A program made the translations under genes and the position numbers. 64,000 nucleotides of DNA from Tessaracoccus sp. MC1679. GTDB taxonomy: Bacteria > Actinomycetota > Actinomycetes > Propionibacteriales > Propionibacteriaceae. The notes beneath the pieces are model-generated. The model saw only the letters and a list, made by a program, of their open reading frames with translations, made no database searches and was not told the DNA's origin. Shown piece after piece: positions 58,909-62,774 of the stretch. Every line of letters starts with the position of its first letter. Within the stretch, counting starts at the first letter, position 1. The stretch spans positions 1-64,000 of the forward strand of contig NZ_JACJGB010000003.1 in the NCBI RefSeq assembly GCF_014164775.1. Reading direction: 5' to 3'.

Positions 58909-59525
58909 CCCGCGTGCTGATCGTCGATGACCACCCCGTGGTGCGCTCGGGGCTGCGCGCCCTGCTCGATGGGGCCGACGGCGTCGAGGTGGTGGGCGCC
59001 GCCGCCTCAGGCGAGGAGGCGCTGATGCTCGCCTCAGAGACCCACCCGGACGTCGTGCTGTGCGACCTGCGGCTGGGGCCCGGGCTCGACGGGGTGGGGG
59101 TCACGGCGGCGCTGCAGGCCCAGCAGGGCGGGCCGGCCGTCCTCATCCTCACCACCTACGACAACGACTCCGACATCGCGCGCGCGGTGCTGGCCGGCGC
59201 GGCCGGCTACCTGCTCAAGGACGCGGAGCCTGAGGACATCGTCTCCGGGATCCAGGACGCCGCCGCGGGGCGGCTGGTGCTGTCGCGGGACATGGAGGGG
59301 CGGGTGGTGGAGCGCATGGCCCAGGGAGTCCCGACGCTGAGCGCCCGCGAGCTCGACGTCCTCCGCCTCGTCGAGGAGGGTGTCACCAACAGGGGGATCG
59401 CCAAGCGCTTGTTCATCTCCGAGGGGACCGTCAAGACGCACCTCGTCCACGCGTACGCCAAGCTGGGCGCGGAGTCCCGCACCGCCGCGGTCGCGGCGGC
59501 TCGGCGCCACGGGCTGCTGGGCTAG
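58905..59525 (+). CDS. Response regulator, NarL/LuxR family
   Basis: A 206-residue regulator. The receiver has RVLIVDDHPVVRSGLRALL, phosphoacceptor Asp in VVLCDLRLGPGLDG, LTTYDND and the Lys of GYLLKDAEPEDI. The DNA-binding domain is LSARELDVLRLVEEGVTNRGIAKRLFISEGTVKTHLVHAYAKLG. The GTG start overlaps the kinase stop (GTGA). It is the last gene before the repeat-rich region, and no clear terminator follows. Confidence 0.93.
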   Translation: MTRVLIVDDHPVVRSGLRALLDGADGVEVVGAAASGEEALMLASETHPDVVLCDLRLGPGLDGVGVTAALQAQQGGPAVLILTTYDNDSDIARAVLAGAAGYLLKDAEPEDIVSGIQDAAAGRLVLSRDMEGRVVERMAQGVPTLSARELDVLRLVEEGVTNRGIAKRLFISEGTVKTHLVHAYAKLGAESRTAAVAAARRHGLLG

Positions 59526-59590
59526 CGGTCGTCTCAGTAGTTCGTCGGGGGTCATGTGCCCTCGCGCCCTGGGTGCCGCCCTTCCCATCG

Positions 59591-59690
59591 TTCCCTGAGG
59601 GGGGCTGCCCGCGGAGCGGCGTGGCCGGTCTCCATCGTTCCCTGAGGGGGCCGTCCGCGGAGCGGCGTGGCCCGTCTCGAAGGGTTGTGA
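59591..59690 (-). repeat. Two inverted 47-bp units (outer left repeat)
   Basis: Units beginning TTCCCTGAGG at 59591 and 59638 are 47 bp apart. They are the reverse complement of the array at 703-858 and of the copy at 62055-62095 on the other side of the HNH gene. The core GCGGAGCGGCGTGGCC is shared. Confidence 0.75.
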
Positions 59691-59990
59691 GCGCCACCTT
59701 CACGCGGATCCCGTTGTCGGGTGCGGTGAGCCGTGAGTCGATGCCCATGCGGCCGTTGTCCAGGGTCTTGCTGTGGCCACTGGTCATACTGTGGTCGGGT
59801 GGTTGAGGCCGCCCGGGCATCGTCTCCCGTCTCCCCGCACTCGTCCTCCCTGTGGCGTGGTCCTGTCCCGGGTGCGGGCCGGCAGGGCGGCGTTGGGGTT
59901 GCGTCTGCTTGGGCGGGATGCCAGCTGGGTGATCGTCGGGTTGGGCACCGCTGCGCAGTGCCGCCCTGCCGTCCCCCACCCTCTCGGCAA
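59690..59990 (-). repeat. Copy B of the ~400-bp dispersed non-coding module
   Basis: Inverted relative to copy A at 395-702. It keeps the 11-bp arms GGCAGGGCGGC (59881-59891) and complement (59960-59970) with the same 90-nt span. It also keeps a small GGCAC...GTGCC hairpin next to one arm. Sequence drift with length changes between the copies argues for non-coding function or decay. Confidence 0.6.
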
Positions 59991-60054
59991 CCATCAGACC
60001 TCTGTTCGCTGAAAGGTCGCGAACCGGGGGCCTCGAGGGCCTTCATCGCTGGTT

Positions 60055-60286
60055 GGCTGAGGTGCCGCGAAGGAACTGGAACCCTCCCCGACGGCTGAGG
60101 AGCCGCGCAGCGGGCTGGGACCCTCCCGGCTGGCTGAGGAGCCGCGCAGCGGGCTGGGACCCTCCCCGCTGGCTGAGGAGCTGCGCAGCGGGCTGGAACC
60201 TTCCCCGCTGGCTGAGGAGCCGCGAAGGGACTGGAACCCTCCCCGCTGGCTGAGGTGCCGCGAAGCGGCCTCGAAGCCTAAGAAAC
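60055..60286 (+). repeat. Six-unit 38/39-bp tandem array
   Basis: Units starting GGCTGAGG lie at 60055, 60093, 60132, 60171, 60210 and 60248, each 38 or 39 bp. Each has the form GGCTGAGGAGCCGCGCAGCG followed by a GGCTGGGACCCTCCCCGCT-like half. There are no unique spacers. The last unit extends into the inner inverted repeat of the HNH locus. Confidence 0.85.
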
Positions 60287-60296
60287 GCGAGCTGAC
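60248..60296 (+). repeat. Inner left inverted repeat of the HNH locus
   Basis: These 49 bp match the reverse complement of 61977-62024 at about 43 positions. Exact blocks include GCGGCCTCGAAG, AAGAAACG and GAGCTGAC. It faces the gene with its unique GAGCTGAC end. Confidence 0.8.
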
Positions 60297-60481
60297 GAGC
60301 CAATTCTCCCGAGTCGTCGAGGCCCTTCACCCGACAGCTGGGTGAGCCGACCGAGGGCGGAGCCCCCGACGCGTCGAGGCCCCGCCACGGGCGCCGACCC
60401 CCCAGCAACCCCCAGAAAAACTTCTCGAAGAATTTCTGCCGGGCGCCCCTGCTGGGAGCCAAAAATGTCAGTGGTCGGTCA

Positions 60482-60487
60482 TAGCGT
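60482..60487 (+). promoter_or_regulatory. -10 box of the DUF222-HNH gene (leaderless)
   Basis: TAGCGT ends 7 nt before the ATG at 60495, with no ribosome binding site between. This fixes the start over a longer in-frame extension that would reach into the repeats. Confidence 0.5.
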
Positions 60488-60494
60488 GGAACCC

Positions 60495-61904
60495 ATGAAG
60501 GACAAGGCGCGTGAGATCGCGGAGCAGTTGCGCTCCGCTGACGAGTTGCGTCGTTTCGCCGAGGCCCAGACCCTGACCCTGCTGTGTGATCTGGCGGAGC
60601 ACTACGAGGTGGACTATGACCGGGTGCTGGAGGTGCTGGCTGAGCGCAGGGTGGTGGTCGGGGGTATCGGGACCCCGGCGGTGTCGGAGTTCATCGGCTT
60701 GGAGCTGGCCGGGTTGCTGCGCTGCCCACCGATCGTGGCGGCCTCCAAGCTGGCTGATGCTTTGAGCTTGAAGCATCGCCACCCGCGGCTGTACACGGCG
60801 GTGCAGGAGGGCCGGATCGAGGCGGCCAGGGCCTGCAAGGCGGCGTCGATGTGTCTGGACCTGCCGGTCGAGGGGGCCGATGCGGTCACCGACCGCTGGT
60901 TGGGTAGGCAGGACGGGTTGGGTTGGACGGCCGCGTTCACGCTGTTGAAGAAGATGATCATCGAGGCTGATCAGGCCCGCGCCGCGGAACGCGAACGGCG
61001 GCAGCGGGCCTCACGCGGGGTGCACGTGTGGGGGTTGCACGACGGGGTGATGAACCTCACCGGCCGCTTGGATGTGCTCGACGCCCGCTACCTGGATGCT
61101 GCCGTGGACCGCATCGCCGACCTGCTGGCTGTCGAGCAGCCCGACACATCGAAGACGATCCTGCGCGCCAAAGCCCTCGGAGTGCTGGCCAACCCCGCCT
61201 ACGCCCTGGCCCTGCTCCAGCACGCGGCGCAGCCCGCCCTCCACGACACCCTGGCCGTCGCCCTCGACACTGCCCCGGCCCCCACCACAGCCAACGCCCC
61301 GGACACAGGGTCAGTCGGCTACGGCGGCGGACCTGCGGAGCCTGCGCCTGTAGACGGTGGGCAGCGTCATGATCCGCACTGCCTCGGCGCGTTGTGTGGC
61401 ACCATCACCACCCCACTGGCCAAGCTCCGCCCCAAGCTGGAGCTGGCCGTCCACATCCACACCGACGCCCTCGGCGAGCTCACCGGCACCGCCCGCATCG
61501 ACCGCGCCGGACACATCACCACCACCCTCCTCGCCGAACTCCTCCCCGGGTTGGATGTCACGGTGCAGCCCGTGATCGACCTGCCCGCAATCCCCGCCGA
61601 AGACCACTACGCCCCATCGGCCGGGTTGAAGAAGGCCCTCCTGCTGAGCATGGACCACGAAATGTTCCCCTACTCCACGCGCCGAGCCAACGGCCTGGAC
61701 CTCGACCACACCCAACCCTTCGCATCCGGCTGCCGCGGGCAGACCCGGAGCGGGAACCTGGCCCCACTCAGCCGCAGGGTCCACCGCGCGAAAACCGCCC
61801 GCACCTGGCGCGCCGACCAACCCAGACCAAGCCAGCTCCACTGGTCCAGCCCACTGGGCTACCGCTACGAAGTTACCCCCAACGGCACCCGCATGCTCGC
61901 CTGA
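60495..61904 (+). CDS. DUF222 / HNH endonuclease-like protein (13E12 repeat family)
   Basis: A 469-residue protein. The N-terminal DUF222 domain is about residues 1-330 (FAEAQTLTLLCDLAEHYEVDYDRVLE; ELAGLLRCPPIVAASKLADA; ARACKAASMCLDLP). A Pro/Ala-rich linker is near 280-300. The C-terminal HNH-like module is LDLDHTQPFASGCRGQTRSGNLAPLSRRVHRAKTARTW (DH, N and H positions present; the usual upstream Cys pair is absent). Family members are multicopy in actinobacteria and their biological role is unproven. The locus is bracketed by nested inverted repeats, which suggests a mobile or repeat-propagating unit. Confidence 0.88.
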   Translation: MKDKAREIAEQLRSADELRRFAEAQTLTLLCDLAEHYEVDYDRVLEVLAERRVVVGGIGTPAVSEFIGLELAGLLRCPPIVAASKLADALSLKHRHPRLYTAVQEGRIEAARACKAASMCLDLPVEGADAVTDRWLGRQDGLGWTAAFTLLKKMIIEADQARAAERERRQRASRGVHVWGLHDGVMNLTGRLDVLDARYLDAAVDRIADLLAVEQPDTSKTILRAKALGVLANPAYALALLQHAAQPALHDTLAVALDTAPAPTTANAPDTGSVGYGGGPAEPAPVDGGQRHDPHCLGALCGTITTPLAKLRPKLELAVHIHTDALGELTGTARIDRAGHITTTLLAELLPGLDVTVQPVIDLPAIPAEDHYAPSAGLKKALLLSMDHEMFPYSTRRANGLDLDHTQPFASGCRGQTRSGNLAPLSRRVHRAKTARTWRADQPRPSQLHWSSPLGYRYEVTPNGTRMLA

Positions 61905-61976
61905 CAGCTCGCCGTCAGGCTGCGAACGAGTGCTCAGGGAGAGGGTTCTCCCGCGGAGCCGTGAGAAGGTGACCTT

Positions 61977-62024
61977 GTCAGCTCACGTTTCTTAACTTCG
62001 AGGCCGCTGCGCGGCTCCTCACCC
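61977..62024 (-). repeat. Inner right inverted repeat of the HNH locus
   Basis: Reverse complement of 60248-60296 with about 43 of 49 positions kept, a single 1-bp length difference. It sits 72 bp after the HNH stop. Confidence 0.8.
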
Positions 62025-62054
62025 GGCGGGCTGGGGCGGGTTGGCTTCGAGACG

Positions 62055-62165
62055 GGCCACGACGCTCCGCGGGCGGCCCCTCCTCTGGGAAGTGTGAGAC
62101 GGGTCATGCTTCTCCGCGGGGGATGTCCCTTGAGAGCCTCCGGAGGCGCTCAGGGAGCGACACTA
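62055..62165 (+). repeat. Outer right 47-bp-type repeats (degenerate)
   Basis: One recognisable unit (62055-62095, GCTCCGCGGGCGGCCCCTCC) and a more diverged one (about 62101-62165, ending CAGGGAGCGAC). They are inverted relative to the units at 59591-59690, so they form the outer arms around the HNH gene. Confidence 0.65.
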
Positions 62166-62225
62166 GGACGACCCCTCCGCCCGGACCTTGACCCCCGACG
62201 AACTCACCACCATGACAGCTGGCCC

Positions 62226-62774
62226 TCAGGCGCCGACGTCGTGCAGGTGGTGAACGAGGTCATGGGCGAAGTAGCGGCCCAGAGAGAGCGCCGTGAAACG
62301 CGACCCGTTGCTGCGCACCCCCGTCCACTCCCACTGCTCGCCCTCGGGCTCGGCCCACGCCTTCGCCGCGGCCTTGGCGCGCTCGCCCACGAGTACCCGG
62401 GTGGCGTTGGCATCGGAGAGCCAGTACTCCTCTTCGGTGGCCGCGAGGTCCTGGTCCCAGTCCTCGAACTCGGCCCCCGCGCCATCGCTGGCGAGGATCA
62501 GGCTGAGACGGGTGGTCATGACCTCGCACACGTCCGCGACATGCCGGGCGTACTCGATGGGCGACCAGGTGGTGGGCTGCGGCCGCCGCTCCGCGCCCCG
62601 CCCCTCCAGCGCCCTCTGGAAGCGGGCCGAGGCGTCGAGGATCAGCCCGGGAAGTGCCTCTGGGCTGACAGCGGCCGGATCGAAGCCGCACTCGGGGCAT
62701 GGCCGCTCGGTCACCCAGGTCCAGTCCTTGGTGTCGGGGGCGGTGGGGTGCGGCGGGATCAGGGGCTCAACCAT
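62226..62774 (-). CDS. DinB-like / DUF664-type metal-binding helical-bundle protein
   Basis: A 182-residue protein of the DinB/YfiT superfamily. ERPCPECGFDPAAVSPEALPGLILDASARFQRAL is the start of the bundle. The three-His metal pattern is spread over WSPIEYARHVADVCEVM and YFAHDLVHHLHDVG. Members include mycothiol- and bacillithiol-dependent enzymes, but the exact activity is unknown. The ATG is 7 nt after TAGGCT on the minus strand (62782-62787), probably leaderless. It lies directly beside the repeat region. Confidence 0.85.
   Translation of the reverse strand: MVEPLIPPHPTAPDTKDWTWVTERPCPECGFDPAAVSPEALPGLILDASARFQRALEGRGAERRPQPTTWSPIEYARHVADVCEVMTTRLSLILASDGAGAEFEDWDQDLAATEEEYWLSDANATRVLVGERAKAAAKAWAEPEGEQWEWTGVRSNGSRFTALSLGRYFAHDLVHHLHDVGA

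Follow-up and report, generated by a model that had tools for sequence, protein, structure and literature searches.

Inverted repeats and a DUF222-HNH gene in an insertion of Tessaracoccus sp. MC1679

Genes of the DUF222-HNH (13E12) family are widespread in Actinobacteria. One of them lies between nested inverted repeats in the first 64,000 nucleotides of contig NZ_JACJGB010000003.1 of Tessaracoccus sp. MC1679 (assembly GCF_014164775.1; this whole stretch is called the window below), which raises the question of whether the gene and its repeats form a unit that spreads, and by what means. Our analysis revealed an insertion, copies of the gene with sharp ends at other places, a fixed orientation of repeat elements towards the genes of one DUF222 subfamily in T. 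lapidicaptus, and gene-less miniature forms. The explanation that we tentatively favour, and regard as plausible though short of probable, is that the DUF222-HNH protein is a nuclease, induced by DNA damage, that binds palindromes and cleaves them, and that repair of the breaks copies the gene, the repeats and miniature versions of them.

Insertion, empty sites and copies

The window gene lies in an insertion between the convergent genes of a LuxR-type regulator and DinB, the stop codons of which are 2,700 bp apart in the MC1679 genome (G000; 3.57 Mb) and 4 bp apart between the same neighbours in two relatives, G019 (L248) and Tessaracoccus lapidicaptus (G022; L249). The original prediction of a unit that has moved, for which a search for empty sites was proposed, is thus supported by these two genomes. 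Among five further DinB loci compared, the regulator and an inverted DinB gene are adjacent in four, without space for an insertion, and in one the regulator is absent from the vicinity. The outermost pair of repeats is a perfect 16-bp inverted repeat; exact matches to its 14-bp core are found in the genome at the two insertion edges only, two more having one mismatch, and it may be either the element end or a split terminator hairpin. A candidate 5-bp target-site duplication, CTCAG, is present at 59533-59537 and 62225-62229.

Copies elsewhere had also been expected, and three further copies of the window gene (86-93% identity) were found at unrelated places on contigs C17 (intact), C9 and C13. 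The four copies have in common the left arm of the inner repeat as well as the gene with its 5' flank. The match ends at the stop codon; the C17, C9 and C13 copies are without the right-hand inner repeat, so that flanks bracketing the gene on both sides, as originally proposed, are not a general property of the copies. The C17 place corresponds to an empty site of 27 bp in G019, and the C9 place to one of 57-160 bp in five of six relatives; empty sites were therefore found at all three places compared with relatives (window, C17 and C9). Both the C9 and the C13 copy lack window bases 60891-61433, a body element (described below) standing in their place, and they share one defective structure (1,111 bp, 91.4%); therefore, a defective unit was copied.

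Repeat families, bodies and type A units

Two nested inverted layers surround the window gene, as originally described. The inner layer pairs 60237-60276 with 61996-62035 (40 nt, 85% complementary) and 60279-60299 with 61974-61994 (21 nt, 90%), and the outer layer pairs 59647-59682 with 62045-62080 (36 nt, 94%), with a second match of 59601-59632 with 62049-62080 (32 nt, 91%). For inverted matches between the two 1.6-kb flanks, the top score is 70.7 bits; in 240 control intervals from fetched regions of ten congeneric genomes, it does not exceed 34.6 bits. The two sides, however, are not the same, contrary to the original description, because a 300-bp body on the left has no partner on the right. 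The layers are two separate dispersed families of repetitive extragenic palindromes (REPs) with a shared design, namely TGAGG, then CCGCGnAGCGG, then CTCGA, plus pairing arms (GGCT/AGCC in the inner family, CCCT/AGGG in the outer one). A genome search gave at least 75 matches with the outer query and at least 79 with the inner query (40 candidates scored in each). A 39-bp array (60051-60299) ends with the inner repeat as its last unit, and at many of 31 genomic places inspected this repeat forms one arm of a REPIN-like near-palindromic pair of about 112 bp. The outer-layer family is associated with a DUF222 subfamily other than that of the window gene, upstream of which the outer element is present as a solo copy. 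Folded as single-stranded DNA, REP stretches were not better than shuffles (z -0.4, -0.9 and 0.4). Near a contig start elsewhere in the genome (L146, G000:C14:109-791), roughly twelve outer REP units of 48 bp are arrayed head to tail. A REP, a body or a DUF222 gene lies at or close to the beginning of contigs C4, C10, C11, C12 and C14; the assembly may thus be interrupted by such repeats.

A dispersed element of about 400 bp (59585-59982), made up of REP units and the body, has the left outer repeat as its edge. At least 40 whole or partial body copies are present in the MC1679 genome among the matches listed (40 candidates scored). In an alignment of 61 full-length copies (38 from MC1679, 14 from T. 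lapidicaptus and 9 from G019), Watson-Crick pairs fill 83.5 and 81.2% of the cells of two stem-loops vs 29-43% when the stems are slid. Two or more pair types, i.e., compensatory changes, occur at 10 and 6 pairs vs 0-4 in the slid versions. Both comparisons are biased in favour of the stems, as the pairing was derived from the consensus. For the body of the window copy, folding is only marginally more stable than for shuffled sequences (z -1.9 and -2.2 for the two strands). Stem mismatches in these related copies comprise 97 A.C vs 30 G.T on the plus strand; A.C would be G.U in minus-strand RNA, and the sequences thus give a hint of a minus-strand RNA from the body. No Rfam match up to E 1 and no HEARO RNA were found in 59400-62400, which speaks against an IscB/HEARO system.

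Solo bodies also occur as miniature elements. An inverted REP arm of at least 44 bp is present at the far end of 10 of the 37 distinct MC1679 bodies examined, giving terminal inverted repeats (TIRs) without a gene, and short matches to the interior of type A units (see below) are kept in four of the 37 (L085, L088, L098 and L101), the L085 body holding a coding remnant. Older bodies (L137/L122, L143/L120 and L142/L128; about 75-78% identity) occupy matching places in MC1679 and G019; therefore, part of the body family seems older than the split of these genomes. One body (L103, G000:C15:148443-148617) is shortened by a segment that by eye looks like an IS481/IS3-type integrase. At L075 (G000:C13:178908-180523), 1.6 kb of REPs and body adjoins a DUF222 gene; the neighbourhood is in other respects syntenic with T. 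lapidicaptus, which has a gap of about 106 bp there.

The full form of the unit was found in T. lapidicaptus around genes of a second subfamily that we call type A, defined by the motif CxxC...HH...N...HHH. The genome count is 14 DUF222 matches; 13 places were listed and fetched, and 11 of them carry type A genes. Every one of these genes adjoins one or more bodies (15 in total), and all 15 bodies point at the gene with their REPs outward, independent of the gene strand; as the type A copies are related, these are not 15 independent events. The other two genes (L168 and L169) are of another kind and are without bodies. Two-sided units have TIRs of up to about 640 bp, and the right REP begins 11-16 nt 3' of the stop codon in L157, L158, L159, L161, L162, L164 and L165; L160 and L167 are shifted or frameshifted. 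The one-sided L163 and L166 cease to match some 8 and 12 nt ahead of the stop codon. In MC1679, the type A gene C11:117535 is bracketed in the same way, and C12 holds a 94.8% copy of this unit that starts inside the outer REP; another type A gene, C10:7, is cut by the contig end. The idea that the repeats bracket DUF222-HNH genes in a constant orientation thus stands in part: they are scattered genome-wide, but the 15 bodies of T. lapidicaptus keep a fixed orientation to their genes.

Two alternatives bear on this arrangement. First, the REPs and bodies could be a family resembling miniature inverted-repeat transposable elements (MITEs) and moved by another enzyme not detected here, the DUF222-HNH genes riding as passengers between two inverted elements. 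REPs and solo bodies do outnumber DUF222 genes in MC1679, the number of DUF222 genes does not predict the number of REPs, and congeners without these REPs carry many DUF222 genes. However, all nine bodies listed in an untargeted search of T. lapidicaptus (nine candidates scored) adjoin type A genes, in type A units, as judged by eye, the REP arms vary together with the gene from MC1679 to T. lapidicaptus, and the C17, C9 and C13 copies have no right-hand element. We consider the passenger explanation unlikely. Second, independent REP families could gather downstream of genes as safe sites, dispensable DUF222 genes tolerating them. By eye, several of 13 solo elements inspected closely follow a stop codon, the window contains elements of two families, and the body beside the window gene belongs with another subfamily. 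Such clustering is strained by the orientation rule, i.e., convergence of 15 out of 15 bodies, and by the fact that bodies keep to a single subfamily in T. lapidicaptus (L168 and L169 lacking them), and seems very improbable.

The protein, its promoter and the genus

The window protein scores 19.6 bits with the DUF222 profile, below the cut-off of 24.4, and hmmscan assigned it to no family; a relative, P0037, scores 35 bits, and P0002, a 79% relative, carries the name 13E12 repeat family protein. Residues D404, H405 and H430 are invariant in 60 sequences, and N421 is conserved in at least 90%. Structural modelling predicted a Noc/ParB-like, i.e., DNA- or palindrome-binding, fold for residues 18-161 and an HNH-like one for residues 371-463. 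As the sole gene recognised in the insertion, it gave no Pfam match up to E 5; a DDE insertion sequence was rejected on this ground, DDE transposases with matching ends not having been searched for. The start codon at 60495 is plausible because a promoter-like motif ends 7 nt upstream.

This motif matches the consensus of PafBC promoters, tTGTCRgtg-N8-TAnnnT (given in the available part of PMC5656591), except for the leading T. With one mismatch or fewer, it occurs in the window only before this gene, although 14 of 100 shuffles also have one such site. At DUF222 loci, it is located directly before the start codon: 43 of 62 upstream regions match at 10 or more of 12 positions vs 5 of 347 control stretches (Fisher p ~1e-37), and 31 of 62 vs none of 347 match at 11 or more (Fisher p ~1e-29), the DUF222 copies not being independent in these tests. 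A PafBC-type, damage-inducible promoter is therefore predicted for DUF222-HNH genes from the sequence; a damage promoter before a multiplying nuclease gene fits repair-driven copying. Coordinates of the features are given in Table 1.

Table 1. Features of the insertion, in window positions
Feature	Position	Strand	Basis or remark
Whole insertion	59526..62225	.	LuxR-type regulator stop (59523-59525) to DinB gene stop (62226-62228)
Outermost 16-bp inverted repeat, left	59539..59554	+	14-bp core search of genome
Two outer 47-bp REP units (CCCTGAGG..CCGCGGAGCGG..TCTCGAAGGG)	59585..59690	+	Dispersed family
300-bp body, two stem-loops (59721-59840, 59870-59981)	59691..59982	+	Genome copies, alignment of 61 copies
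Tandem 39-bp inner REP units	60051..60240	+	Families D1 and D2
Terminal inner REP arm	60243..60299	+	Left end common to all four window-gene copies
Predicted PafBC/RecA-NDp-type promoter motif TGTCAGTG-N8-TAGCGT	60466..60487	+	7 nt before ATG; leaderless if used
DUF222-HNH (13E12) gene, 469 aa	60495..61904	+	Profile score, named relative, model
HNH residues D404-H405, N421, H430	61704..61784	+	Conservation, 60 sequences
Inverted inner REP arm	61974..62035	-	Not in the other three window-gene copies
Inverted outer REP units, without body	62045..62120	-	Repeat comparison
Outermost 16-bp inverted repeat, right	62189..62204	-	14-bp core search of genome

DUF222 matches are present in 37 of 39 genomes of the genus, with up to 24 per genome. 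The REP pattern has 136 matches in MC1679 (2 in the reversed-pattern control), 58 in G019, 35 in T. lapidicaptus, and 12 in each of G012 and G028; the remaining 34 of 39 genomes have 0-5 each. G012 and G028 have small REP families with other arms (CTGAGGTGCGAGCGAAGCGAGCCTCGA; CTGAGGAGGGCGCGGAGCGCCCGTCTCGA). In REP-poor genomes, 32 within-genome pairs of paralogues have similar genes and unrelated flanks; the shared block begins close to the gene's 5' end and stops between 6 nt after and 308 nt before the stop codon. Gene-bounded copying thus extends beyond the genomes that carry these REPs, and the repeats look like a clade-specific elaboration.

Several of these results weigh against a general link between the nuclease gene and its repeats. 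In ten other congeners, a single one (L208, 46 bits) of the 40 DUF222 loci examined scores above the control maximum, a second being level with it, so the proposed check of whether the repeats always bracket such genes came out negative, all but one locus being within the control level. Five of the seven MC1679 DUF222 loci with a result are at background for bracketing repeats. The genome with 24 DUF222 genes has no REP, the number of DUF222 genes being no predictor of that of REPs; window-gene orthologues in two relatives are without such repeats; the MC1679 type A gene C17:157301 has no repeat match, and the G019 gene C25:75217 has no body beside it.

Gene conversion could also account for part of the gene-bounded pattern. 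In its full form, this alternative states that old dispersed DUF222-HNH paralogues are kept alike by conversion, homology stopping at the gene ends, and that the repeats are unrelated clutter. It would explain the 32 pairs and the grouping of paralogues by genome in G028, G038, G025 and G008, which are without these REPs, and in T. lapidicaptus, and REP13E12 loci of Mycobacterium tuberculosis are described as gene-conversion hot spots in the available part of PMC13061034. However, empty sites at all three places compared mean insertions, the shared block takes in intergenic 5' DNA and a REP arm, and the bodies keep their orientation, which makes conversion an improbable source of the whole.

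Proposed mechanism and related systems

Spread by a nuclease that acts on palindromes would proceed as follows. DNA damage would induce the DUF222-HNH gene through its PafBC-type promoter; the protein would bind and cut REP-type palindromes; break repair, rather than strand transfer, would make the copies; and the gene, the repeats and gene-less miniature versions would thus be copied into new places, the HNH protein, and not another enzyme, presumably moving the miniature repeats.

The closest known layout is that of REPtrons and TIRtrons, i.e., RAYT genes with flanking REPs or TIRs, in which the terminal repeats can be degenerate REPs joined to stem-loops (available part of PMC3733652). Similarly, the window and the type A units have a gene between inverted REPs, gene-less REP copies and REP dimers are dispersed (here, the 136 pattern matches and the near-palindromic pairs), and the terminal repeats may be degenerate REPs joined to stem-loops. 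However, the enzyme here is a DUF222-HNH protein instead of a Y1/HUH tyrosine transposase. PF01797 had no match in the MC1679 genome (the control matched in 5 of 14), and we therefore call the layout REPtron-like without assigning it to REPtrons. REPINs, as presented in the available part of PMC3116915, are likewise dispersed pairs of inverted REP arms, but around a short spacer, whereas one pair here encloses 1.7 kb with an HNH gene in a genome without a RAYT match. MITEs, also named there, are comparable with those gene-less solo bodies that end in inverted REPs, but no consistent target duplication was seen by eye among the 13 solo elements. HNH homing endonuclease genes are similar in that a selfish-looking HNH gene would begin its spread with a cut; however, no allelic homing site was found, and the four copies at unrelated places do not fit spread between allelic sites only. 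Of the two elements originally suggested, homing-type and repeat-directed, the one with a repeat-directed nuclease would be the better candidate. Finally, the mycobacterial REP13E12/13E12 loci share multicopy DUF222-HNH genes of undefined function, the REP13E12 repeat regions being without a defined biological function in the accessible text (PMC10589994 for the genes, PMC13061034 for both). By contrast, defined ends, empty sites and long TIRs in one clade are found here, the ends of REP13E12 not having been compared.

A broader possibility, which we consider doubtful, is that DUF222-HNH genes are a new class of transposable elements, in which a damage-triggered ParB-like HNH nuclease mobilises actinobacterial REPs and has the role that tyrosine transposases play in Proteobacteria, the units ranging from the gene only, ending in its last codons, to complete elements whose long terminal repeats comprise stem-loops, together with miniature swarms. 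One large REP class is apparently without a dedicated transposase in the available part of a REP survey (PMC3733652). The defined ends, the empty sites, the copied defective unit and the damage-type promoter make a selfish, repair-driven mobile gene directly testable. If this reading is true, the DUF222-HNH protein would be a candidate enzyme for the REPs of a genome without a RAYT match, and a widespread actinobacterial gene family would be a new kind of mobile DNA.
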